From positions 1-64,000 of the IMG/VR virus record IMGVR_UViG_3300043409_002246: 64,000 nt of DNA. One strand, given 5' to 3'. Every line of letters begins with the position of its first letter. Position 1 is the stretch's first letter. Shown here piece after piece: positions 12,243-55,224 of the stretch. A model generated the notes under the pieces. That model ran no database searches. It was given only the letters and a program-made list of their open reading frames with translations, and was not told the DNA's origin. This stretch comes from a virus. The position numbers were made by a program, and so were the translations under genes.

Positions 12243-13007
12243 ATGACCGAATCATCTACCGTTAAGTATGCTGACCTCCGCAAGGAAGGCGGCGAAATGG
12301 AGACTCTGAAACTGCCGGCATACGTGGCCTGCACCCGGCGGCGCCCGGCGCTCGTGGAGCCCTTTTTGGCCGGCATCCATCCGCACGTTCTCTACTACGG
12401 GCCGGACGATACCTACCCTCCGGAGGACTTCAAACTGTCGCCTCAGTGGGCCGAACTGCAACGCTGTTTGGTGGGGCAGTTCCGGGCTTGGAACAACCAT
12501 GTCGAGATGGCCAAGCTGTTCCTCAAGACCGACGCCCCCGTCGGGCTGTTCATGGAAGACGACGCGGTCCCCATCGTAGATAACTGGTCAAATATCGTAA
12601 ACGCTTGTCTCTCGTTACTTACCACTTACGACGTGTTCGGCCTCTTCGCCGACCCGATGAAGCTCGATGGCGCCAAGACTCCGTTCACCTACGAAACGCA
12701 GTCGGTCTTTTGTCGCCGGCGGATTGTCACGGTTCGCCCGTGCTGGGGCAGACCGATCATGGTGTGGGGCTGTCAGGCTTACCTGATGACGAGGCGCGTC
12801 GCGGAGAAGCTGGTGCGGCGCGAATACGACGGCCAGCCGATTGACGCGTATCTCCCGAACTTTGGCAGTTTTGCTTTTCTCGATCCGAGTCCGTTTGTTC
12901 ACGACCGATCACAGGGCAGCATGATTGATCCGCACGTCGGGAATTTCGCGCAGAAAGAAAACGCAAAAAAGCCGTTGACAAACATATCGCGGATGGGCAT
13001 CTTGTAG
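12243..13007 (+). CDS. GT25-like glycosyltransferase, paralogue 1
   Basis: A 254-residue protein, start chosen at MTESSTVKYADL; METLKL at 12297 is an alternative. It has LFMEDDAVP with the acidic triad EDD at 105-107, a central GCQAYLMTRRVAEKL segment and a C-terminal HDRSQGSMID. This order (EDD nucleotide-sugar site, then xAYLxxxxxAxxL helix, then a conserved tail) matches LPS-type family 25 glycosyltransferases. It is one of three tandem relatives (also 13512 and 14275). It would transfer a sugar to envelope glycan, virion or modified DNA; the acceptor is unknown. Codons around residues 121-130 are made of heptamer array E, and the last 11 codons contain late promoter P2. Confidence 0.7.
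   Translation: MTESSTVKYADLRKEGGEMETLKLPAYVACTRRRPALVEPFLAGIHPHVLYYGPDDTYPPEDFKLSPQWAELQRCLVGQFRAWNNHVEMAKLFLKTDAPVGLFMEDDAVPIVDNWSNIVNACLSLLTTYDVFGLFADPMKLDGAKTPFTYETQSVFCRRRIVTVRPCWGRPIMVWGCQAYLMTRRVAEKLVRREYDGQPIDAYLPNFGSFAFLDPSPFVHDRSQGSMIDPHVGNFAQKENAKKPLTNISRMGIL
12604..12631. repeat. Short heptamer array E inside a glycosyltransferase gene
   Basis: Three to four period-7 units on the minus strand (AAGTGGT, AAGTAAC, GAGAGAC). They encode part of VNACLSLLTTYDVFG on the plus strand. Confidence 0.5.
12975..13003 (+). promoter_or_regulatory. Late promoter P2, TTGACA-N17-CATCTT
   Basis: TTGACA (12975-12980), 17 bases, CATCTT (12998-13003). It lies inside the last codons of the upstream glycosyltransferase gene (…KKPLTNISRMGIL). 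Unlike most, the next start codon is far (13138), leaving a leader of about 128 bases. Confidence 0.8.
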
Positions 13008-13009
13008 TT

Positions 13010-13137
13010 GTAAGCGTCGTGTGCGGTAGATAAAAAATTCGCACCCCGAGAGTCTGGCTGAAACCGGACTTAACCGAATAGTTTGCGGAGCACCCGCACC
13101 GGGACGAACACACGACGCGCTTTGGTTGCCGCCCCTT
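13010..13137 (+). promoter_or_regulatory. Structured 5' leader before the deoxyribosyltransferase-like gene
   Basis: The RNA started by P2 should begin near 13010. Perfect 10-bp arms GCGTCGTGTG (13014-13023) and CACACGACGC (13109-13118) close a domain. It contains hairpins GTCTGG/CCGGAC (13052-13069, one G-U pair) and GCGG/CCGC (13085-13097). The closing stem plus two inner hairpins forms a three-way-junction-like shape. It sits directly before a nucleoside-metabolism gene, so a riboswitch or other RNA control element is possible. No known class was matched. Confidence 0.5.
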
Positions 13138-13512
13138 ATGAAACTATACATCGCCGCACAGGATCAGCACGCCGCTCGCGAAGCGTCACAGTCCCTCCGC
13201 ATTGAGGGGCACGTAATCACCGCGCGCTGGCTCCACGCTGAGTTCATGTCAACGGAGTTTTACTCCGAGGCCGAGCGCATTCAAATCGCCTTCGATGACG
13301 TGCGCGACGTGGTGCGCGCCGATGCGCTGGTGCTTTTGGAGCCGAGTCCGTTGGAGAAGGTGCCCGGCGGGAAGTTTGTGGAAGTCGGCGTCGCCCTCGG
13401 GTTGAACAAACGCGTTTACGTGGTCGGGCCGCGCGCGAACATGCTGATGTGGCACCCGCTCGTAACCTGCGTGGCGAACCTCTCCGAACTCTGCAACGAA
13501 CTGCGCGACTGA
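13138..13512 (+). CDS. Nucleoside 2-deoxyribosyltransferase-like protein
   Basis: A 124-residue protein, start MKLYIAAQDQHAAREA. It matches the family pattern: an N-terminal strand with a small loop (IYxAA), GHVITARWL, a helix with AFDDVRDVVRADALVLL, then GGKFVEVGVALGLNKRVYVVG with the candidate nucleophile Glu82 and Asn101 further on. Family members move 2-deoxyribose between bases or hydrolyse deoxynucleotide glycosidic bonds, so it may salvage or destroy nucleotides, or feed DNA-base modification. It has its own promoter (P2) and a structured leader. It overlaps the next gene by one base (TGATG). Confidence 0.7.
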   Translation: MKLYIAAQDQHAAREASQSLRIEGHVITARWLHAEFMSTEFYSEAERIQIAFDDVRDVVRADALVLLEPSPLEKVPGGKFVEVGVALGLNKRVYVVGPRANMLMWHPLVTCVANLSELCNELRD

Positions 13513-14282
13513 TGAACTGGTGCCTTACACATGGACGGGAAGCGACCGGGGACAACCGCTGCGATCCGTCCCTCGGCGGCATTATGATGCCGTGCCAGAC
13601 GGTGATGGTCCCCCCGATCTACGTTTTTGGATGCGTTCGCCGGCCTCCGTTGGCGATGCCGCCGCTGGTTGCCGCCGGCCTCAACCCCACGCTGCACGTC
13701 GGCACCGACTACAACCCGCCGCGCGGCACCACGTTTAAGCCGCCATACAACCGGGCGCTCGATCACAAGCTGACGGCGCATTACCGGGTGTTCCTCGGAC
13801 ACCGCGACATGGCGTATCGTTTTTTATGCGAGCATCCGGAGGCGCCGTATGCGCTGATGATGGAAGACGACGGAGTTCCGAACTGCGCGGACTTTGTTTC
13901 CGTCATCGCTGACTCTCTCAACTACGCGATTCGGAACAATCTTCCGACGCTCTGTTTACACGCGCGCTCCATCCGCCCTCAGCTATTCACCCCGTCCGGC
14001 CATCTCCCCAACCGCATCGTGTTCAAGCTCAGGCCGCAAACGCGCCGCACTCCGAACGCAATGGGCGGCACTCACCATCTTTACGGGTTCACGCTGGCCT
14101 ACCTGATCTCGCGCGCCGTCGCGAACTCATTTACCGAGGGGCCGGCATGGACTGGAATACCGGTTGACTGCCACCTGCCGGACACTTATGGAACCGAGCT
14201 TTTACAGCCAAGTCCGTTCAACCACGACCGCTCGCAAGGTTCACTGGTTGACGGCAAATACCGCAAGCCGAAACATGTCTGA
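13512..14282 (+). CDS. GT25-like glycosyltransferase, paralogue 2
   Basis: A 256-residue protein starting at MNWCLTHGREATG; MMPCQTVMVPP at residue 25 is a possible later start. It has ALMMEDDGVPNC (EDD), HHLYGFTLAYLISRAVANSF and FNHDRSQGSLVDG in the same order as its neighbours, so same fold and chemistry. The N-terminal 25 residues are absent from the other two copies. It overlaps the third copy by 8 bases, indicating one transcript from P2. Confidence 0.7.
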   Translation: MNWCLTHGREATGDNRCDPSLGGIMMPCQTVMVPPIYVFGCVRRPPLAMPPLVAAGLNPTLHVGTDYNPPRGTTFKPPYNRALDHKLTAHYRVFLGHRDMAYRFLCEHPEAPYALMMEDDGVPNCADFVSVIADSLNYAIRNNLPTLCLHARSIRPQLFTPSGHLPNRIVFKLRPQTRRTPNAMGGTHHLYGFTLAYLISRAVANSFTEGPAWTGIPVDCHLPDTYGTELLQPSPFNHDRSQGSLVDGKYRKPKHV

Positions 14283-14976
14283 GAACCACAACGTTAAATA
14301 TCCGCGCCGCGCGCCGGTTGTCCCCTTGGTGCCGCCGGTGTATGTGCTCGGCCACGCCAGCCGCTCGGGCCGGGTGTTGCCGCACCTGAGCCGGCTCAGT
14401 CATACTCTGGTCATCAACCCCGACTGGCCGCTGGGGAACATCACCATGCACCCGACCTACGCGGGCCGGTGTCCGTTGAATCACTACCGGGTGTTCCGGG
14501 GCTGGCAGACGATGGCGGATAAATTCCTCGTGGCCAACGCAAACCCCGTGGGATTGTTTTTTGAAGACGACGCGGTTCCGAATTGCCCCGACTGGACGCG
14601 CCGGATCAACTTGCTCGCTCACTGGATGGAGGGAAAATACGACCTGATGTATCTCTGCGGCAGGTGTTTTAATCCGAAGCGTTTCGACTTGGTTGCCACG
14701 GTGCTGCAAACCCCGGTGTATTCCCTCAAGGTTGATGCGGCTGGAAGCACCGACGATTTTGGTGGGATGAATCATGTCTTCGGCTGCTGTGCGGCGCTCA
14801 TGTCGCGCGACGGGGCCTGCAAAATGGCGACGGCTCGCTGGACCGGCGTCCCGGGCGACGTTTACTTCCCGGACCACTCTCGGTTCTGCTTCGTCGGCGC
14901 GACCGACTCCATGTTCATCCACGACCACTCGCAAGGATCGCTCATTGACCCGAGCGTGTCAGCGACCTATCTATGA
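14275..14976 (+). CDS. GT25-like glycosyltransferase, paralogue 3
   Basis: A 233-residue protein starting MSENHNVKYPRR, an N-terminus similar to copy 1 (both have NVKY/TVKY). Motifs: LFFEDDAVPNCPDW, NHVFGCCAALMSRDGACKM, FIHDHSQGSLIDPS. Divergence between the copies is large outside these motifs, so they may use different donors or acceptors. It overlaps the endonuclease gene start (ATGA-type). Confidence 0.7.
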   Translation: MSENHNVKYPRRAPVVPLVPPVYVLGHASRSGRVLPHLSRLSHTLVINPDWPLGNITMHPTYAGRCPLNHYRVFRGWQTMADKFLVANANPVGLFFEDDAVPNCPDWTRRINLLAHWMEGKYDLMYLCGRCFNPKRFDLVATVLQTPVYSLKVDAAGSTDDFGGMNHVFGCCAALMSRDGACKMATARWTGVPGDVYFPDHSRFCFVGATDSMFIHDHSQGSLIDPSVSATYL

Positions 14977-43924: not shown

Positions 43925-45280
43925 ATGAGCGAATCACTACCGTCCAGTCGGAGCGAGGTCCAGTTCAACGTCCCGGTCAACCGGCTGCAACAGCCGGACA
44001 TGCCGGTGCTGACGGGCATGGCTGACGCTTTTCAACGCGGCGCGCTCGACGTGCAGACTCTTTTCAAGTCGGCCTCGATGGGGAGCGACCTCAAACGGCA
44101 GAAGGCGGAAGACGAAGTGCGCGTGACGAAAGCCAAGAGCGAGCTTGAGTCTGCCCCGGCTGAACAGGCAGTCCGGATTGCTAAACTAGAGTCGGAGCTT
44201 GCCGACATAAAGAACAAGGAGTTGAATCGGCCCAAAGTAGAGGCTTTCAAGTCGGCGGAGGCGGACATCGCGATTGCAAACCAGACGGCTAGAAAGCTGG
44301 CGGCGGCTAATTTCAGTAACGGCGTAGAGCCAGATGCCCTGACGTTAGTTCAAGCTTGGGAGTCAAACTTCAAGAACGAGGCCATCCCCTACCGCGCCGA
44401 GCAGGGTCAGCGGGAATTTCTCGACTACAATAAGATGCGGGAACGTCTTGCACCGATTCAAAAACGCGACGCCGAACAGGCGGCGCAGGGGCCCGCGTCC
44501 GCGCTGAATACCGCCAGCAACATCAAACAAGCTGCGGAAAGCGGGCGACCTCTATATCACGCGGACGGGAAGGCAAAGACTACCTTTGAATTGGACTCTG
44601 ACCGGGTCAAGGATTTCGCGGCTCTGCGGGATACCGGGACGCCCTTGACGGAGCGCCAAAAGATAGACCAGAGAGATGTTCTGGATCGCAACCTTCAGCT
44701 TCTCGCGGACATGGAGCAGGCTTCTACCATCATCGCAAAGGATACCGCGACCGGCCCGTTCATAGGGACCCTACCCGGTCAGGCGGCAGCATGGGCGCTG
44801 GCCGCGACGCGGATTGACCCGACCATTCGGGACGACCAAAAGAAATTGACGATGTTCGCCAACTGGAAGGTTGCGGAAGGGACCCAGCTTTTGAAGGGCG
44901 CCCTGTCTGAGAAGGAATTGAAGTTCATTGAGCAGACGGTCCCCGAGCTTTCTTCCAGCAAATTAGTGTGGGAACAATATCTGGCTCCGAGGATCAAGAT
45001 GCTCAAAGCCGCCAATGACCGAATGGTGCGGGGCGGTAAAGTCCCGGCGCCGGGCGAGGCAGATTTGACTGACGGTTTGGAGAGCCTACCGATGGCTACT
45101 CAACCTTCCTCCAATGTGGGAGTTCCCTCTTCCCGCCCGCCTTCGCCGATTCCAGACGGACAGCCGGGGTCAACCAAAGAGAACCCGGCTAAGGCTGCTT
45201 CCGCAGATGAATACGCGAAGCTCGCGCACGGGGCGTGGTATTGGAACGCCAAGCACAAAATGTCACTCCAAAAACCTTGA
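43925..45280 (+). CDS. Internal virion protein, gp15-like position (451 aa)
   Basis: A 451-residue mostly helical protein (MSESLPSSRSEVQFNVPVNR...) with coiled-coil segments (RVTKAKSELESAPAEQAVRI, KLESELADIKNKEL). No membrane segment or enzyme motif. Position between gp14-like and the giant gene fits the second ejection protein of T7-like cores. The C-terminal 80 residues are Pro/Ser-rich and disordered. The stop directly abuts the P9 -35 box. Confidence 0.55.
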   Translation: MSESLPSSRSEVQFNVPVNRLQQPDMPVLTGMADAFQRGALDVQTLFKSASMGSDLKRQKAEDEVRVTKAKSELESAPAEQAVRIAKLESELADIKNKELNRPKVEAFKSAEADIAIANQTARKLAAANFSNGVEPDALTLVQAWESNFKNEAIPYRAEQGQREFLDYNKMRERLAPIQKRDAEQAAQGPASALNTASNIKQAAESGRPLYHADGKAKTTFELDSDRVKDFAALRDTGTPLTERQKIDQRDVLDRNLQLLADMEQASTIIAKDTATGPFIGTLPGQAAAWALAATRIDPTIRDDQKKLTMFANWKVAEGTQLLKGALSEKELKFIEQTVPELSSSKLVWEQYLAPRIKMLKAANDRMVRGGKVPAPGEADLTDGLESLPMATQPSSNVGVPSSRPPSPIPDGQPGSTKENPAKAASADEYAKLAHGAWYWNAKHKMSLQKP

Positions 45281-45318: not shown

Positions 45319-48300
45319 ATGTCTTCACTGATTGATACTAATCGGATCGCCGATCCGGCACCTGAACCTCTGTCCATGAACATCCCCGACCCGGGACTGG
45401 CGCCGCTTCCGGCTCCGCCTGCCGGCGGATTCCAGATGTTGCCCCTGCCGGTTGCGCCCGTGGCGCCGGTTGCGCCCGCCGAGCCGTGGAGTCCGCCTGA
45501 CGAAATTTCGGGACTTCCCGGGACGGAGTCGTGGAGTCCGCCTGACGAAATCTCGGGGATAGAGTCCGCCGAGCAGTGGAGCCCTCCCGAGGCAGATGTT
45601 GCTCTCGAAAAGATTCGTTCTTATTCCCCGGAGAAACTCGCGGAGATGGCAGAGCCGGAGCGACAGGCACTTTGGGCGGAGGTTCGGGATTTCGCGCCGC
45701 CGGACGATCTGAAGAAACTGGCAGACGCTTCTGCGAAACACCGCGCCATCGGGCTAACCCCCAAGATCGTCGCTGAAGGCGTCGCCGGGACGCTCGGCAC
45801 TTTGTGGAAAATGGGAACCAGTCTGGTGCAGGCCGGTTGGTCGGCTACCCACCTTCCCGGTCCTTCCGACATCAAGAAGATTCTCAAAGCTACCTCGAAA
45901 GATGAAGCCTTGAAAATCTTGGCCGACGTTAGCACCCGCTCTGACGCGGAACTCGTGTCGGGGTTGTCCACTGCCAGCGCCAACGCGGTTATCCTCGCCC
46001 GGGATGCGATTCGCGAGATTGTGAATTTTGAGCCCCCGGTAGGTAAGGCCCTCGGCATCCCCGGGACCCGGGACATCCTGAGCGCCGTGACGGGAACCGA
46101 CCTTACAAAGCGCCTCGGAGCCGACGTTTCCGACCCTGAGAATTTTCTCGAACCGGAGGACAACGTAAAGCGTTTTCTGAACGATTTCGACGCCGCTGAC
46201 GCGGTGAATAAAACCGCCGAGGGCCAGTCGGTGTTCTCCGAGTGGCTCGGGATGGATGCCGCAGAACTGAAGAAGCAGGACATCGAGATCAACCCCGAGG
46301 CCATCGAAGGCTTCGGAGTCGCGCTCGACATTACGAATTTGGTCCCGGCCTTGGGAGCGTTAAAGTCGCTCAAGGTCGTAAAGCTGGCGGGGGTTGGAAA
46401 CGCCGCCGCGCGGTCGGCGCTGGTTGACGAAGCCGGAAAAGTCTATCTCACCACGGCGAAAGAAGGAACCGCGCTTTTCATGGCGCAAAGGCTCGCGCAA
46501 AAGGCAGCAGCGGGAGTTGCCGCTGTCGGTGACGCGGCTGCTAAGTTCGGTAAGCGAGCCTTCCAAAGCAAGACCGTCGGGGCAGGCGCCTTTGGAGCGT
46601 TAGCGGCAGGTCATGCCGCCACGGCGGGTAAAGCGGCGGCGCTTGCCGGCGGAACCATGTTGTCGGGCAAGGCCGTCGCGGGCATCGCCCGGATGGCCGG
46701 CAGTCAAACCGCCATAAATTTTGCAACCGACGTGGGAGTCTCCGCGCTCAAGGGAGCCAAAGGCGGGTTACTGTTCGGCTTGCCGCTGGCGGCGCTGACG
46801 GATGACCCGGAGAAGCAAGTTGCAATGGCGACTATCGCGCCGGCAATCGGCGGAGTAATCGGCGGAGCGATGGGCGGAGCTACCGGCATCAAACGCGCGG
46901 CGCTGGCCAAGACGGAGGCCATCAACCGGACGATTCTCAAGAACGCGGAGCAACTCGGAGACGTTGATCCGGCACAGCCGCACGATCTCGCGGTCGAAGG
47001 CCATGAAGCGGTCGAGGCCATGCACCGGGAGAATCAGTCCAAGATCGCGGACGACAACAGTCGCAACCGGGTGAACATCGTCCGGCGGCTTGCTGAAAAA
47101 TTGGGACGGCCAATGTATGTCGTCACTCCCGATCAGTTTGCCGCTCTTGGAGTCCGGGCAGCTTCGGGCGTGGCTGACCATCCAATCAACGGCAAGCCGG
47201 CCATGTTGGTCAAGCTCAATCCCGACGGAAGTCTCCCCGCGCTCGGTCACGAATTGGCTCACCCGGTCCTCGATTCTTTTAAGGCGGAGAATGCCCCCGA
47301 AGGCATGGCCCCGGAGATGGTTGCTCTGCGCCAACGGCTGCACGATGAATTGATGGCGTCCTTCAGGAAGCGCAAGGTTGGCGCGATGGAGGCGGACATG
47401 AACTCGACGCTTGTCAAGGCCGTCAAGGCGGCGCAAGTTGCCCTCGCTGAGAGGCCCGAGAGCGCGCGGCTTCAAATCAAGTTGGCCGAGGCGCAGGCCG
47501 CTCTCCAAAAGGAAGGCATCAACCTCGGTCAAGGTGCCGAAGAACTGGCTGCTGAAGCTCTCACCGTCGTAATGGAAGGCCGGGGGCTCACCGGCGACGT
47601 GAAGTTCACTCCGGAAAACGCCAGCGCGGCTAACCGTCTATTTTTGTCGTTGCTCGAAAGTCTCGGGTTGGTCAACGATCAGGTGCTCGCGCGCTTGCCC
47701 GAGGGAATGGATCGCAAGTCGAACGTATCGCCGGGCCAAGAGGTCGAGCACACGCAACGCTCGATTCGCGCCGCGCAGGCGCTTTGGGATAATTTTCACG
47801 ACAACCCGCTAATCAAAGAGGCGCTGGCCGACGCGGGCGGAACCCCCGAAGCACCCGCAGCGCCCGACGCTCCGGTCGCTCCCGTGGTGCCGGACAATGC
47901 GGCAGCAATCGCCGCGCGGCTCGCCGAACTGAAGAAGTCCGGCACGCACACCCTCGCGCAGAAGCTTCTCGACAAATTCAATCGCGGTGAAGTGCTGACG
48001 CCGGACGAGCAAGCCAACTTTGACACGTTTTTCGGCAAGCTCAATCTCGGCAAGCCGGCTCAACCGGTGATCGCTCCCGTGGCTCCCCAGCCGATTCCTC
48101 CGGTAATCCGGGGAGTGAAGCCTACCCCTCCGTTTAACCCGGGCAGCAAAGAACTCAACGGGCTCAACATGCCCCTCGGGACCGATGTTCCCGTAAATCC
48201 CGTGACACCCGGGGCGCCTCCGGTAATTGAAGCGCCCAGCCGGCGGGGGCAGACCTCCGCAGATTTTAACAACCCCGCGCGGGACGCGGCAGACGCGGCG

Positions 48301-51300
48301 ACGGCGGCTCAGGCGGAACGAGTGGCGAAGTCGAACCTGCCGAAGGAGGCCAAATCTGCGTTTGCGAAAATCGCGGCCTTGCCCGGCGCGCTCTGGAAGA
48401 TTCTCCACGAAGGCGCCAAGAATGAAGAGGGCGCCGCCGGCATGTTGGATCAACGTCGCCGACAGGTAATCCAAGCGGCTCGCGACAACCCGGCTCTCAG
48501 GGACGAAGCGAACAAGTATGGATGGATGAAGAAGTCCTCGGAAGTAACCTCCGGGGGCGAAGAGATTTTAGTCGGCTTCAACGGTGAGGCTCTGCTGGCG
48601 AACGCATTGCTCGCGGTGAAAGAAATCGGGTTCAAAAAAGTTCCCTACCTCAAAGACAAAGTAGTCGGCGGGGAGTTGACCGGAGAGGGGCTGAGAGCCA
48701 TCCGCGAGGACCAGCTAAAATATCTTCAGAATCAAAATGCGGGATTCGGCGGCGACGGGTCAAAGCTGGTCCGTGGAAAAGAGACGGCGCAGCATGTCCC
48801 GGCGGAGGACCCGAACTACACGCCGCAGCAACTTTCTTCGCCGGACGCACTCGACTTTATCAATCTGACGATGGGGGAGAACACCCCGATTTCCGCGAAG
48901 GTTTACACCAAGGGAACCCCGGTGCCGATTCTCGCGGCGGACTTCGCCAAAGCGAACAAGAAAGTCGGAACTCCCGCGCTCGGCAAAGACGGCCAGCCGT
49001 TGATTTACGCGAAGGAGCCTTTTGCCGGCCAGCCGATTGAGGGATTCAACAAGCTGCGCGCCGACCTCGAAGCGCAGGGAGTTAATTTCCGGGACCTGAA
49101 GCCCGCGAGCGAGCGTCTGAACGTCAAGAATCTACGGGGAGCGGAAGTGATGGAGAACGTGTCCGGGATGAAACCGAACGTGTCCGTCACTACGGCAGCG
49201 GGGTTCATGGCAGAGAAGCGCGCGATCCAGATCGAAGGCCCTGATGGGAAAATGTATGATGCGACCTTCGACGGCTGGCAGGATTTCGGCAAGCTGAAGG
49301 GCTGGGGCCAGCAGGCTCAAATTACCACGCTTGAGAAGATGCCCGGGTTCAGCGACGGCACCACGACCTACGAAGCCGCGCTCCGTGAGGCCGGCTACAA
49401 GGTTCAAGATTTCGGCAAGCCGCAGACGCTCAAAGAAGACCCGGCGGCGCACGTCCCCGGGGAAGTCAGCAAGCGCCCGGACGACACCGCGCTGAAACTT
49501 CCGACTCCTGCGGACGCGCCGGTGAAGCTCGCCGGGGATGACATCGGACTCACCCCGGCTCGGTTCATGGCGGAGAAAGTCTCCGGCAGCGAGCATACCG
49601 AACAGAGTCCATCCTACCCGGATGCCATCGAGAAAGCGAAAGCGCGCGGCGGCAATGCGTGGGTGCGGCAGACCGATTCCCCGACGAACGCCGACCGCGT
49701 ATTGCTCGTGCAGTTCGCGCCGGAGTTGATGTATCCGAACGGCCCGGACCCGATCTCGACTCCGTATTACGAGAAGCTTTACTCCGGGGTCCGCAAGGGC
49801 TTCGACAAGGCTCCGACGTTTTGGGAAATCCCGCAATGGGCCGCAGTCGCGAAGAACAATCTGGCCAAGTCTGATTTTTACGCGGTTCACAACGTCGCGG
49901 AAGCGAAGGCATTTTTGGAAAAAGCGGACTACGGTCGCGTGGCCTTCTCCGTGATGGACGTGAGCAAGGCGCTGACCGAAGAACTCGTGCCGCATATCAA
50001 GGGCGAGGTTGACCTCGGCGGCTACACCGACCGCACCGCCGCCGCCGCACTCAGCCCGAAGTCGCACATTTGGAACTCGATGAATGAGTTCGTGGAAGCG
50101 CAGGGCGTGAAATACCAGAAGGGCTTCGACTACGCGCACTTTCGGGGCACGCCGATCATCCCGCGCATGGAACTGTCGGCAGGTTGCCGGCACAAATGCA
50201 CGTTCTGCACTATTGACCGCAAGGTGACGAACAGCCCCGTCTCTGAAGTCAACGCACAGGTGGACTCCTTCTCCGACCTGAACGCGAAGCTGGTGTATTT
50301 GAACGACAAAACCTTCGGCCAGTCCCCGAACGTCGCGGAGATGCCGCGTATCTTCAAACAGATGAAGGAAGCGAACCCCGAGTTCGAGGGCTTCGTGATC
50401 CAGACCACGGCGGCGCAGATGAAGCTGTTCAAGCCCGAGTTCCTGAAGGAAGCCGGCATCAAATACGTGGAGCTTGGCGTTGAATCTTACAACGACTCCA
50501 TTCTGAAGCCGCTGCGGAAGCCGGCGAATGAAAAGCTGATTGACGAAGCCGTCACCAAGCTGCGCGAGACGGGAGTGAACTTCATCCCGAACATCGTCAT
50601 CGGCTTCCCGGAAGAGACTGCCGCGACCTACGCGCACACGATGGATTTCCTCCGCAAGAATGAGGACATCATCAGCCACGTCAACGTGTATAACCTCGCG
50701 GTTTACGAGGGCACCGAGATTTCCGGCAAGATCAAGACGAAGACTGCCGGCGACGTGGACGAGAACACGGCGGCGAAATCCTTCCACAAGGACCCGGCGC
50801 TGCACGCCAAGTTTGCAAAAGACGTTTACGACTTCGCCACGGAGCGCCTCGGCAAGCCGGCAGCGTTCATGGCTGAGAAGGTAGCCCGGGAGCGAACTGC
50901 GGAAGCTCACCCCTCTCTCAAAGACGAGACGGGGATGCCGAAGATGTTTTATCACGGGTCGTTCAAATCGAAAGAGTTGATCGCTTCCGGAGGGTGGGAT
51001 ATTGACAAAACCAAATCTGGCGGTCTATTCGGAAAGGGGTTTTACTTTACCGACAACCCCGGGGTAGCCGGCGGAGTCCCTTGGAGAAATTCTTTGCGGA
51101 AGCTCGTTGGGAAATCCCCCGAGGGCTACGCGATGCAACCTACCTCGACGAATTCGTTCTTTGAGCAGAAGGTAAACCCGGCGGAAGGAACCCCCGGGGT
51201 GTTTCCGGCGTATCTGGATTTGCGGAACCCGTTCATCGCCGACAAAACTTATACTGGACCCGAGGCGCTGGCTTTAATCGAGAAGTTGCCTCCACTGCCC

Positions 51301-54300
51301 GAGGGCTATGGGACCGCCCGTAAGTTTTTCGAGCGGACTCTAGCTGACGCGCCCCGACCTCTTCGGGGGACTGATCTGTTCAAAGCGGTTCAGGAATACG
51401 CCATCAAGTCGCAGAAGGCCGACGAATTTCTAGGATACCAAGCGGACCCCTCGGGAGCTTCCCTGAAGGGGTTGGAGATGGCGCCGGATCGAGTAGTTCG
51501 CTGGATGCAGGAAGCGGGCTACGATGGAGTTACCTACCTAGGCGGAGTCACCCGAAAAGCGACGTTCACTTCACTCGGAGAACACGCTGTCGCCGTGGCC
51601 TTCGCGCCGGAGCAAATCATCTCCCCCTACGAGAAGCCCGGGTCCGAGCCCGGCAGGTTCATGGCTGAGAAGGGCCGGCCTCTCACCGAGGCGGGCGAGG
51701 CACTCGAACGCAAAGGTTTATTTTTCACCGGCACGCGCGATCCGAAGGACGGTCTGACGGTTCTCCGATACAGCAACAGTTCCGGGGAGCCCGTCGCGGA
51801 CATTTCCTTCCGGGCGGCGGACGGCGCCAAGTCGGCGACGGTCAACATGGTGTTCACCGACGAGACATATCGCCGGCTCGGCCTCGCGGAAGCACTCACG
51901 CGCGAAATGGGCGCACGCTTGCAGGAGGCCGGAGTCACCGACTTAAAGGGCACCGCAGTTTCTAACAAGGAAGGCGAGTTTCCCGCCATCGGCCTGCGGA
52001 AGAAAGTTTTCGGCAACGTGGAAATCCGCCCCATCAAGGGCTTGGAGGGCACCGACAAAACCGTCGGGATGCAGGACATCCGCTCGAAAGTTGACCCGAA
52101 CCAGAAGTTCATGGCGGAGAAAACTCAAGCCACGAAGGAGATTGAGTCCTCCGGTTTGGAGTTTTCGGAGAAGGGCAATACCCTGAAATTCAAGGATGGG
52201 AAAAAGACCGTGGCATACCTTCGCTACTCTGTGAACGATGGAGAGGCGTATCTGGACGAAACCAAAACCGACGCCGGCTACCGAAGGCGGGGGTTGGCGG
52301 AAGCACTTTATCGGGAGTTGGGCTCCCGGTTGCAGAAGTCTGGCATTACGGTCCTCGACGGGGACGTGATTTCGGAGGCGCCTCTTCACTTGAGGAAGAA
52401 AGTATTCGGTAACGTCCAAGAGTCGGGAAAAGAATTGACGTTGTCTGTCCCGGAACCTCTACTTAATCAGAGGGACGCGCTGCTGGAAGAGAAACGCGGG
52501 CTGGAAAAAGTTCTGTTAGACGTGGAGAACGAGATCACCCGAGCGTGGAACGCGGGAGAGCGGAAGACGAGCGCGAAGAATGAACTTGCACTGAAACAAG
52601 CCGAAACAAACCTAGCGGCGGTTCGCCAGCGTGTCGAGGACTTCAACCGGGACAACCCCGGAGTTTTGGGGTTCCAGAAAAGTCCCCCGGGTCACGACGC
52701 TACTAAGAAATTTGACGATCACGTATGGATGCAAGTGTCCTCCAAAGTTGACCCGAACCAAAAGTTCATGGCGGAGAAAACGTGGATCACCCGCGAAGGT
52801 GAAGTCGTGGACGCCAAGGGAGATCACGCACGCGACGCCGCCGAACGCCACGGCGTGAAGATCACGAACGACACGCGCGACAAGTCGGTCAACGCGGCGC
52901 TCGACAAGGGCGAGGTTCAGGCGGAGTTGATGGACAACACGCTCTACCTTTTTGCCGACGCTGCATCGTTCACCGAACTCAACCGCCGGCAGCGCGCGGC
53001 CATCGAGAAAGCAGCCCTCGAAGGCGGTCACGCAGTCGTTTACAACGGCAAGCACATTGAAGACTTCGGGCCGGCCATGAAGTTCATGGCGGACAAGGCT
53101 ACCAACTCCCGAGGGTTGCCTCCGGCAGTCGAAAAGGACGTTAGGCGGGCGGCTAGAATTCTGCGAGCTTCCGAACAGCGCCTCCGGGACCTTCCCGACG
53201 GAGCTTCCCTCGAACAACGGGACGCGGCAGTGGGAAGCCTGAGCAAGGCCGAGCAACTTCTGAATGATGTCAATCTCAACTACGATATTCTGGATTTTCC
53301 GGCGTTGGAGTGGGTGCGAAAATCACTTCGAGAACATGCCTCCGACTTGACCGACCTGCTAAACACCGAGCGCCGACCGGCGATAACCGAGGATGCGGCT
53401 TTAATCGGGCGACTCGCCGACGGCATGGATGATCTCCTAAAGCCCGCCTCCAAGTCCTTCATGGCGGACAAGTCTCCGACCGTGTGGATCACCCCGGACG
53501 GGAAGAAGGAGCCGCTGGGGGGAGTCCTGCACGAACACTACCTCGCGCAGAACTCCGATAAGCTCAACAAGAAGTTCGGCACCAAGTTCTCTGGCGAATA
53601 CGATGAAGCGCAACGGCTGAAAGCTTTGAACGCCGGATTCGTCCGGGTCCGATCCTCCGGGCAGGGCGACATGACGGTCGAACTGAACGAAAGATTTTGG
53701 GGCAAGCGCAAAGCCCAGCTTCTCGCCCATGCCCTCGACAACGTGGCCGAGATGAACTCGTTGACCGTGGACCTTCTCACCGACAAGGGCAAGCACGTCG
53801 CCGGAAACTACGCTGACGTGTATGTGTCCAAGGACCCGAGCCAAGCGATTCGGGACGTGTTTTCCGAGATGCTCCTGCCGACCGGGAAGCCGACGGTCAA
53901 GGAACCGACGGCGATCCAGCGCGCCCGCGCGATGCGCGAGCCGCAATACATGGCGGACAAGGTCAAAGCGCCCGTAGTCGAAGATCAACTCGAACTCGGA
54001 AAGCCGGCGCCGCCGATTGACCGCTACAACCGGGAGTTCGTGAAGTCGCTCACGCTCGAACAGAAGAAAGAACATTTCCCCGAGGCGGTCGTAACCGCGC
54101 GCGACGCGGACGGAACGCCGCCGTTAATCGGCTCCGACATTGTCGGCTCGCCGATGGTGAAGAAATATGGCGAGGCGGCTGCGATCAAGAAAGTCGGCGA
54201 CAAGCTCGCGGCCCGTTACGAAGAATTCAAGAACGATCCGGCAGTCGAACTCGGGAGAACGTGGTATTCCCGTTTTACCGGCCCGCTGAAAAAGCACTTC

Positions 54301-55224
54301 GGCAAAGACGCTTCGCTGTTCGCGGAATTGCTGGCCGCGACCTCCCCGCAGACGCAGCCGAAGCAGAACTTCGAGACGGCGTATCACGCTTTCGAGCTTT
54401 ACAAGGCTGGTTGGTTCGACGATCTGGTTGCCGGGTTTATCGAAGGGCTCGACAAGATTGAGTCCGGCGTGCTATATCAAGATTACGTGGACGCGGTGCC
54501 GGCGAGCAAGCGGCCCGCGAAGATTTCCGACGAGACTCTTCTCGGCTGGTGGATTGACAGCCAGAATTTGCGCCCGACGAAAGCGCCCCGGCTCAAAGGC
54601 AAAAGTCTGAGCATCGAAGACGAAGTGCTTTTCAACGCCAATAGCGTCGCGGTGCTGAAGGTCGCGGCCCGGAAGTGGATGACGGAGAACACGGGACCGA
54701 AGACGAGCCAGTTCGTCCGCAACCTGCTTGGACTTGACCACGGCGCCACGATTGACCTTTGGGCCGACCGTTCGGTTCGCGAGGCGGCTTACTCCGACTT
54801 CGAGAAACGCTGGCGGATTCTTCCGGAGAACACCAAGGGCGTGTCCGACGTGGACTTCGACTTTTCTCAGGCCGCATTCAAGCACGGCGCGGACAAACTT
54901 GGTATGAAACCAAGTGAGTTGCAAGGCGCGCTCTGGTTCTTGGAAAAACGCCGTTGGGCGGAGAAAGGCTGGTCGCAACTCAATCTCGGCGATTACCTGC
55001 CGCACTTGCAGGAACTCGTGGATGCCGGCCCGCTCTCCGAGGCGCTAAAGAACGTCCCCATCTCAAGGGCTAAAGCCTTGGCCGACGTGGTCATCGCGCG
55101 CAAGCAACTGGTGAAGGCGAAGGCGGAAGTCGCCAAGATCGAGCACGCCGAAGATTTGGCCATCCGCCGGGCGAAGTCGCGGCAGGAAACCTTTGCCCTT
55201 GACATCAAACCCAAAGCCAAGTAA
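45319..55224 (+). CDS. Giant polyvalent internal-virion protein with metallopeptidase, radical SAM, ART-like and GNAT-like modules
   Basis: 3301 residues, start fixed by promoter P9. N-terminal Pro-rich tail with three SWSPPDEISG-type repeats, helical region, then Ala/Gly-rich hydrophobic stretches (about 430-540). A zincin-like HELAH lies at 644-648. From 1296 onward, nine FMAEK/FMADK/YMADK motifs (at 1296, 1416, 1850, 2114, 2264, 2483, 2589, 2714, 2877) separate modules: unknown; radical SAM (CxxxCxxC at 1623, 1627, 1630, with GVESYND and IGFPEET); ADP-ribosyltransferase-like (FYHGSF, GLFGKGFYFTDNPGVA); two GNAT-like (YRRLGLAEAL, YRRRGLAEAL); then four uncharacterised. Position matches the largest ejection protein (T7 gp16). 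The arrangement fits the 'polyvalent protein' concept: enzymes injected with the DNA to counter host defences. No frameshift seen. The peptidase might cut at the repeated motif, which is inference. Confidence 0.8.
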   Translation: MSSLIDTNRIADPAPEPLSMNIPDPGLAPLPAPPAGGFQMLPLPVAPVAPVAPAEPWSPPDEISGLPGTESWSPPDEISGIESAEQWSPPEADVALEKIRSYSPEKLAEMAEPERQALWAEVRDFAPPDDLKKLADASAKHRAIGLTPKIVAEGVAGTLGTLWKMGTSLVQAGWSATHLPGPSDIKKILKATSKDEALKILADVSTRSDAELVSGLSTASANAVILARDAIREIVNFEPPVGKALGIPGTRDILSAVTGTDLTKRLGADVSDPENFLEPEDNVKRFLNDFDAADAVNKTAEGQSVFSEWLGMDAAELKKQDIEINPEAIEGFGVALDITNLVPALGALKSLKVVKLAGVGNAAARSALVDEAGKVYLTTAKEGTALFMAQRLAQKAAAGVAAVGDAAAKFGKRAFQSKTVGAGAFGALAAGHAATAGKAAALAGGTMLSGKAVAGIARMAGSQTAINFATDVGVSALKGAKGGLLFGLPLAALTDDPEKQVAMATIAPAIGGVIGGAMGGATGIKRAALAKTEAINRTILKNAEQLGDVDPAQPHDLAVEGHEAVEAMHRENQSKIADDNSRNRVNIVRRLAEKLGRPMYVVTPDQFAALGVRAASGVADHPINGKPAMLVKLNPDGSLPALGHELAHPVLDSFKAENAPEGMAPEMVALRQRLHDELMASFRKRKVGAMEADMNSTLVKAVKAAQVALAERPESARLQIKLAEAQAALQKEGINLGQGAEELAAEALTVVMEGRGLTGDVKFTPENASAANRLFLSLLESLGLVNDQVLARLPEGMDRKSNVSPGQEVEHTQRSIRAAQALWDNFHDNPLIKEALADAGGTPEAPAAPDAPVAPVVPDNAAAIAARLAELKKSGTHTLAQKLLDKFNRGEVLTPDEQANFDTFFGKLNLGKPAQPVIAPVAPQPIPPVIRGVKPTPPFNPGSKELNGLNMPLGTDVPVNPVTPGAPPVIEAPSRRGQTSADFNNPARDAADAATAAQAERVAKSNLPKEAKSAFAKIAALPGALWKILHEGAKNEEGAAGMLDQRRRQVIQAARDNPALRDEANKYGWMKKSSEVTSGGEEILVGFNGEALLANALLAVKEIGFKKVPYLKDKVVGGELTGEGLRAIREDQLKYLQNQNAGFGGDGSKLVRGKETAQHVPAEDPNYTPQQLSSPDALDFINLTMGENTPISAKVYTKGTPVPILAADFAKANKKVGTPALGKDGQPLIYAKEPFAGQPIEGFNKLRADLEAQGVNFRDLKPASERLNVKNLRGAEVMENVSGMKPNVSVTTAAGFMAEKRAIQIEGPDGKMYDATFDGWQDFGKLKGWGQQAQITTLEKMPGFSDGTTTYEAALREAGYKVQDFGKPQTLKEDPAAHVPGEVSKRPDDTALKLPTPADAPVKLAGDDIGLTPARFMAEKVSGSEHTEQSPSYPDAIEKAKARGGNAWVRQTDSPTNADRVLLVQFAPELMYPNGPDPISTPYYEKLYSGVRKGFDKAPTFWEIPQWAAVAKNNLAKSDFYAVHNVAEAKAFLEKADYGRVAFSVMDVSKALTEELVPHIKGEVDLGGYTDRTAAAALSPKSHIWNSMNEFVEAQGVKYQKGFDYAHFRGTPIIPRMELSAGCRHKCTFCTIDRKVTNSPVSEVNAQVDSFSDLNAKLVYLNDKTFGQSPNVAEMPRIFKQMKEANPEFEGFVIQTTAAQMKLFKPEFLKEAGIKYVELGVESYNDSILKPLRKPANEKLIDEAVTKLRETGVNFIPNIVIGFPEETAATYAHTMDFLRKNEDIISHVNVYNLAVYEGTEISGKIKTKTAGDVDENTAAKSFHKDPALHAKFAKDVYDFATERLGKPAAFMAEKVARERTAEAHPSLKDETGMPKMFYHGSFKSKELIASGGWDIDKTKSGGLFGKGFYFTDNPGVAGGVPWRNSLRKLVGKSPEGYAMQPTSTNSFFEQKVNPAEGTPGVFPAYLDLRNPFIADKTYTGPEALALIEKLPPLPEGYGTARKFFERTLADAPRPLRGTDLFKAVQEYAIKSQKADEFLGYQADPSGASLKGLEMAPDRVVRWMQEAGYDGVTYLGGVTRKATFTSLGEHAVAVAFAPEQIISPYEKPGSEPGRFMAEKGRPLTEAGEALERKGLFFTGTRDPKDGLTVLRYSNSSGEPVADISFRAADGAKSATVNMVFTDETYRRLGLAEALTREMGARLQEAGVTDLKGTAVSNKEGEFPAIGLRKKVFGNVEIRPIKGLEGTDKTVGMQDIRSKVDPNQKFMAEKTQATKEIESSGLEFSEKGNTLKFKDGKKTVAYLRYSVNDGEAYLDETKTDAGYRRRGLAEALYRELGSRLQKSGITVLDGDVISEAPLHLRKKVFGNVQESGKELTLSVPEPLLNQRDALLEEKRGLEKVLLDVENEITRAWNAGERKTSAKNELALKQAETNLAAVRQRVEDFNRDNPGVLGFQKSPPGHDATKKFDDHVWMQVSSKVDPNQKFMAEKTWITREGEVVDAKGDHARDAAERHGVKITNDTRDKSVNAALDKGEVQAELMDNTLYLFADAASFTELNRRQRAAIEKAALEGGHAVVYNGKHIEDFGPAMKFMADKATNSRGLPPAVEKDVRRAARILRASEQRLRDLPDGASLEQRDAAVGSLSKAEQLLNDVNLNYDILDFPALEWVRKSLREHASDLTDLLNTERRPAITEDAALIGRLADGMDDLLKPASKSFMADKSPTVWITPDGKKEPLGGVLHEHYLAQNSDKLNKKFGTKFSGEYDEAQRLKALNAGFVRVRSSGQGDMTVELNERFWGKRKAQLLAHALDNVAEMNSLTVDLLTDKGKHVAGNYADVYVSKDPSQAIRDVFSEMLLPTGKPTVKEPTAIQRARAMREPQYMADKVKAPVVEDQLELGKPAPPIDRYNREFVKSLTLEQKKEHFPEAVVTARDADGTPPLIGSDIVGSPMVKKYGEAAAIKKVGDKLAARYEEFKNDPAVELGRTWYSRFTGPLKKHFGKDASLFAELLAATSPQTQPKQNFETAYHAFELYKAGWFDDLVAGFIEGLDKIESGVLYQDYVDAVPASKRPAKISDETLLGWWIDSQNLRPTKAPRLKGKSLSIEDEVLFNANSVAVLKVAARKWMTENTGPKTSQFVRNLLGLDHGATIDLWADRSVREAAYSDFEKRWRILPENTKGVSDVDFDFSQAAFKHGADKLGMKPSELQGALWFLEKRRWAEKGWSQLNLGDYLPHLQELVDAGPLSEALKNVPISRAKALADVVIARKQLVKAKAEVAKIEHAEDLAIRRAKSRQETFALDIKPKAK

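Follow-up and report, generated by a model that had tools for sequence, protein, structure and literature searches.

The window, that is, the whole stretch of DNA analyzed here (64,000 nucleotides, positions 1 to 64,000 of the 75,414 bp IMG/VR virus record IMGVR_UViG_3300043409_002246), encodes a giant protein of 3301 amino acids (aa) in which nine copies of a short motif, [FY]MA[ED]K, stand between successive modules. The gene lies downstream of tail genes, with an integrase gene next on the opposite strand, and its product is probably associated with the virion. Most of the related giants carry motifs of the same kind, hereafter junction words, which mark the borders of exchangeable modules and change together within each protein. 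The domains and repeats of the window protein are as follows:

45319-55224, plus strand, giant polyvalent protein, 3301 aa from the ATG (matches to Pfam, NCBIfam and PHROGs)
45481-45600, plus strand, WSPPDEIS in three tandem copies near the N-terminus, a second repeated word that is specific to the protein (repeat analysis)
46990-47574, plus strand, zincin-like domain, corresponding to the metallopeptidase (MPTase) of polyvalent proteins, with HELAH at 47248-47262
48274-49164, plus strand, conserved domain of unknown function, NQxxGFxGDG, immediately upstream of junction 1, with invariant N, Q and G residues
50170-50652, plus strand, radical SAM module (PF04055, 1.2e-13)
50923-51624, plus strand, ADP-ribosyltransferase (ART-PolyVal) module of family m10 (PF18760, 1.5e-6)
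51784-51939, plus strand, GNAT module 1 (PF13508)
52174-52350, plus strand, GNAT module 2 (PF14542/PF00583)
54319-55014, plus strand, conserved C-terminal domain, DUF7178/phrog_3842, module m1 (profile matches)

The same open frame comprises 3329 aa when counted from the upstream GTG at 45235 instead of the ATG at 45319, so that the residue numbers of our analysis exceed by 28 those of an earlier note on this DNA. With its zincin-like region, radical SAM, ART, two GNATs and DUF7178, the giant is a polyvalent protein; as is typical of this class, it is encoded by a mobile element close to virion genes and combines several distinct conflict-type domains (2-15 per chain in the class). The radical SAM, GNAT and DUF7178 matches score above the Pfam cut-offs, and the ART-PolyVal match is slightly below (29.5 bits vs 31.2); the m10 ART-PolyVal module is also present in the relative L256, where FLP stands in front of it.

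Nine junction words in the window protein

The earlier note reported nine motif copies (residues 1296, 1416, 1850, 2114, 2264, 2483, 2589, 2714 and 2877 of the 3301-aa protein), and we recovered all of them, in a single plus-strand frame between 49204 and 53961:

49204-49218, plus strand, junction word 1, FMAEK, homologous in position to AGFLPRE, AGFMPNA, AGFQPPS and AGFSVKN of relatives
49564-49578, plus strand, junction word 2, FMAEK (motif scan)
50866-50880, plus strand, junction word 3, FMAEK (motif scan), in a linker of low predicted local distance difference test score (pLDDT)
51658-51672, plus strand, junction word 4, FMAEK (motif scan), in a low-confidence stretch of the AlphaFold2 (AF2) model
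52108-52122, plus strand, junction word 5, FMAEK (motif scan), with a KVDPNQK linker
52765-52779, plus strand, junction word 6, FMAEK (motif scan), with a KVDPNQK linker copied from that of word 5
53083-53097, plus strand, junction word 7, FMADK (motif scan)
53458-53472, plus strand, junction word 8, FMADK (motif scan)
53947-53961, plus strand, junction word 9, YMADK (motif scan), ahead of the conserved C-terminal module

The motif occurs nowhere else in the six frames of the window. From composition, 0.005 copies would be expected, and among 2000 shuffles of the giant, 1992 contained no copy and eight contained one. The KVDPNQK shared by two junctions, also pointed out in the earlier note, belongs to a 42-nt direct repeat with 95% identity (52083-52124 and 52740-52781), which is a recent intragenic copy of the junction.

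The placement of the motifs between modules rather than inside them holds as well. Homology between relatives starts and ends preferentially at the motif (see below), and the five motifs covered by two structure predictions all fall in low-confidence linkers, none inside a module. In the first AF2 model, junction 1 directly follows a well-predicted domain, with pLDDT below 50 at the motif. In the second, confidence is low at the four motifs that surround the ART and GNAT modules, and the GNAT domains between them reach pLDDT of approximately 70-89; because this model is poor overall, its evidence on linkers is weak.

The words differ between lineages and change in concert

A tblastn search of INPHARED with the whole giant and a direct protein scan of IMG/VR both produced no match, and the relatives were reached via the terminase first and then via the conserved regions of their own giants. 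The resulting family set includes about 57 distinct giants of at least 1600 aa, encoded by uncultured phages in IMG/VR, and the non-redundant set includes 48. These proteins share a layout: a fixed N-terminal half, consisting of short tandem repeats, the zincin and the conserved NQ/GDG domain, then 4-12 exchangeable effector modules and finally a conserved C-terminal module, with a motif at nearly all of the junctions.

The earlier note had suggested a search for giant phage proteins with repeated FMA[ED]K at domain borders. An exact-codon DNA scan of IMG/VR yielded single-copy, probably chance matches, and the exact DNA pattern was absent from the first 15 relatives, an absence that pointed to the word itself differing between phages. 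Most relatives carry the same kind of motif, with the consensus [AR]-[QGK]-F-X-P, in the form of FLP, FQP, FSP/FSV, FMP, FEP or FRP depending on the protein, with FMAEK in the window protein. The correspondence is most apparent at the homologous junction 1, after the NQxxGFxGDG domain, where an invariant AGF leads into the word, giving AGFMAEK in the window protein and FLPRE, FMPNA, FQPPS or FSVKN in others. The X residue of junction 1 recurs at later junctions of the same giant: in 19 of 25 giants it matches the X that dominates downstream, compared with 5.4 expected and a maximum of 15 in 20,000 shuffles.

In the module region of the 48 non-redundant giants, two F-x-P copies from one protein have the same x at a frequency of 0.272. 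Shuffling x between proteins lowers this to 0.101 (z 22), and the observed value was not reached in any of 2000 shuffles; the effect persists, with z of 11-13, when each word is represented by at most two proteins. Across all 57 giants, there is no excess of shared x for F-x-P in the N-terminal half, nor for the control tripeptides Y.P, I.P, V.P, F.D, F.E, F.G, F.K, P.F, G.P and D.P; L.P, F.A and A.P reach z of 1.7-2.1 only, and the z of 5.6 for F-x-V corresponds to the FSV word. Nor is the junction word enriched in other open reading frames of the five phages examined. Thus, the copies within one protein change together, the X and its flanks being fixed per protein and different between lineages. 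The tree of the N-terminal half requires at least six word changes, so the concerted change happened several times.

Two observations on individual relatives can be added. The data did not bear out the possibility that L220 is a chimera in which the words follow the N-terminal half, since its placement by the C-terminal part was non-significant (approximately unbiased (AU) test, p 0.36). L299 (JABFSS010000103.1), a giant with seven FLP words, comes from a contig binned with a Candidatus Peribacteraceae metagenome-assembled genome, which might reflect a host link or mis-binning.

The words delimit exchangeable modules

When different giants are compared in pairs, 568 local alignments start within 15 aa of a motif vs 157 at other Phe residues, and 993 vs 187 end there. 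Splitting the chains at the words produces 150 segments, among which 17 families are shared and occur in shuffled order. There is mostly one motif per junction and none inside domains, as in processed polyproteins. Families m1, m2, m4 and m6 are each found with 3-8 different words (six for m2, five for m4, at least three for m6), modules up to 65% identical differ in their word, and in each of the 23 worded giants analyzed the word ahead of the C-terminal m1 is that of the host protein. The motifs therefore mark module boundaries, and a module takes the word of the protein in which it resides, so the proposal of the earlier note that the junctions delimit exchangeable cargo modules gains strong support from the relatives.

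Module m6 (VHDxFGHxxEGxxFGPRGExNAW) is also common among isolated phages, and those checked lack junction words; its carriers include L215, L216, L217, L218 and Mycobacterium phages.

At the DNA level, codon identity among word copies is 0.408 vs 0.386 expected from codon usage (23 giants). The codons thus vary about as codon usage predicts, which indicates that selection acts on the peptide and not on the DNA. Identity is above expectation in the window protein (44/64 vs 27.6) and in L238 (43/57 vs 27.3); together with the 42-nt repeat, these excesses show that linkers are sometimes copied within one gene.

The zincin-like domain and the N-terminal tandem words

The HELAH noted earlier at residues 644-648 is indeed present (672-676 in our numbering) and is the only HExxH in the window phage. 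An intact HExxH is found in the window protein and in most relatives, and the second His and one downstream Glu are invariant in the 36 relatives aligned, so that the signature of a zincin MPTase, HExxH plus a downstream Glu, is recognizable by sequence motif alone. The region is well ordered in the AF2 model. Neither it nor the NQxxGFxGDG domain has a Pfam match, and a PDB sequence search gave a single weak match that is probably spurious. The variants of the zinc-binding motif are HDAGH, as in L256, or HDALH and come mostly from one clade.

The second repeated word, in the N-terminal part, is present in 2-4 tandem copies per giant and is likewise protein-specific: the relatives L200, L203, L205, L199, L201 and L214 have other words in place of WSPPDEIS, with DEFAGFE, DPWxSFPKA, DPFAGA and FDPxQPFT among them. 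This tandem word is possibly a head-loading motif, and it would suit a loading signal better than the junction word does.

Other genes in the window

Near the terminase gene, three adjacent paralogous genes at 12243-14976 encode proteins with similar C-termini containing a DRSQGS-like motif. Other glycosyltransferase-like genes are located around the terminase, up to 20 kb of the window.

A proposed reader of the junction words

Sites that occur about once per border, lie in linkers and switch together call for one reader. On balance, we favor the interpretation that the word co-evolves as a recognition site and most probably serves to release the modules by proteolysis. A single dedicated recognizer would read every junction. 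This would most likely be a protease that cleaves the modules apart, either inside the head or once injection has taken place, leaving each effector to act alone; the zincin in the same chain would be the first candidate cutter. Should the preference of the recognizer drift, all sites would have to follow, yielding concerted words. The release by cutting proposed in the earlier note fits best because MPTase cutting has already been proposed for polyvalent proteins (PMC5512222) and the giant contains the sole HExxH of this phage. A more elaborate version, for which we would put the case at slightly less than even, is a co-evolving junction code: a protease, residing in the N-terminal half or encoded by the phage in trans, would read a lineage-specific word at every border of an effector polyprotein, modules gained from another lineage would have to adopt the new word, and the word would accordingly limit or follow cassette exchange and could serve as a bioinformatic guide to effector modules and their limits.

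Several observations weigh against these readings. Seven worded relatives (L220, L256, L260, L265, L267, L299 and L224) have HDxxH in the zincin, and L237 has lost the first zinc histidine yet keeps seven FQP-type motifs; the zincin in cis is therefore not the cutter in all giants, unless Asp suffices. Given the invariant second His and downstream Glu, the Asp variants may still work, or another enzyme cuts. A Foldseek search with the model of the zincin and NQ domain found nothing significant, leaving the zincin fold unconfirmed. The code is not strict everywhere, since L212/L235, L245 and L230 keep F-x-P with mixed X, and the permutation tests do not model phylogeny, for which the small-subset result and the tree count are given alongside. 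Finally, the virion RNA polymerase of phage N4, which is comparable in kind and also has an HExxH domain, is reported to be packaged without being processed (PMC5512222).

The main rival, which we consider unlikely but deserving of serious attention, is that the word acts as a signal for docking or loading. A single phage partner, be it a scaffold, portal, ejection protein or chaperone, would bind it, pack or thread the chain one module at a time and co-evolve with the word, with no cutting. Such a signal would explain the concerted words and the peptide-level selection equally well, the degenerate zincins would pose no problem, and the second, N-terminal word shows the tandem copies that loading motifs would show; however, a docking motif need not mark each border, mostly once, nor be absent from the first 1100-1300 residues. 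That the words are relics of module insertion, spread within the gene by copying or recombination of linkers, is improbable. Modules are clearly exchanged, the window protein contains one 42-nt copy, and it and L238 show the codon excess, but across the 23 giants codon choice at the copies is nearly random, and copying at new insertions does not account for homologous junctions that switch words together across lineages. Lineages with modules in common differ in their words, which means that a swap cannot rely on the motif as its shared homology, and the recombination joint that the earlier note offered as an alternative to cutting is mostly unsupported.

A neutral proline-type linker with a within-protein compositional bias would be consistent with the location of F-x-P in linkers, but it is very improbable given that control tripeptides of the same region show no such effect and that X spans L, Q, S, M, E and R rather than one common linker residue. 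Least credible of all is that the ATG in TTC-ATG-GCN-GAR-AAR starts translation of separate module proteins: each FMAEK/FMADK copy in the window does have an in-frame ATG followed by GCN, but no consistent ribosome-binding site precedes the copies, and most words of the relatives (FLP, FQP, FSP, FRP, FEP) have no Met at this position, which refutes internal starts for the family.

If the preferred reading, proteolytic release, is correct, the words bear on the question of how polyvalent giants become working effectors after injection, for which autoproteolysis has been proposed with no site named in the literature found. A motif that marks the borders names candidate sites and predicts fragment sizes, and the words provide a tool to delimit unknown anti-host modules. 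The series FLP, FQP, FSP, FMP, FEP, FRP and FMA would constitute a natural set for mapping how recognizer specificity changes while all sites follow.

Relation to known systems

Neither polyvalent proteins nor the proposal that they undergo autoproteolysis is new, and the literature covered here contains no report of junction words. In its combination of a zincin MPTase with ART-PolyVal, GNAT and other effector domains, the window giant resembles the multi-domain polyvalent proteins of phages and conjugative elements described by Iyer et al. (2017), for which release of the domains by MPTase autoproteolysis was proposed; the passages of this description that were searched (PMC5512222) report no junction motif. 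The isolate polyvalent giants that share module m6, namely those of Mel-JY33 (4012 aa), Pra-JY27/Pag-Yong1 (2803 aa) and ctQRb9 (3209 aa), have no such words.

We know of no junction word in the N4 virion RNA polymerase. This polymerase (gp50) and its relatives, ejected proteins of about 3500 residues with an HExxH domain (PMC12633501), are similar to the window giant in their very large size and in this domain.

Prohead proteases of the phiKZ/T4 type cut after Glu. A Glu at the P1 position was considered and rejected as the common feature of the words, since FLP, FQP, FSP/FSV, FMP and FRP have no Glu and FMAEK, which contains one, is the exception. In giant phages, with SPN3US gp245 as the example, one phage protease cleaves head and ejection proteins at recurring short linear motifs, much as proposed here for the giant proteins, but the cuts mainly remove N-terminal propeptides (PMC10052503). 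Unlike in SPN3US, the words described here are F-x-P, are located between modules and lack Glu in most lineages, and a scan of virion-region genes revealed no Pfam protease.

In viral polyproteins, one short protease recognition sequence is repeated at every border and evolves in concert with the protease. The giants differ from these in that the cargo of the DNA phages consists of variable, shufflable effector modules and the word changes between lineages.

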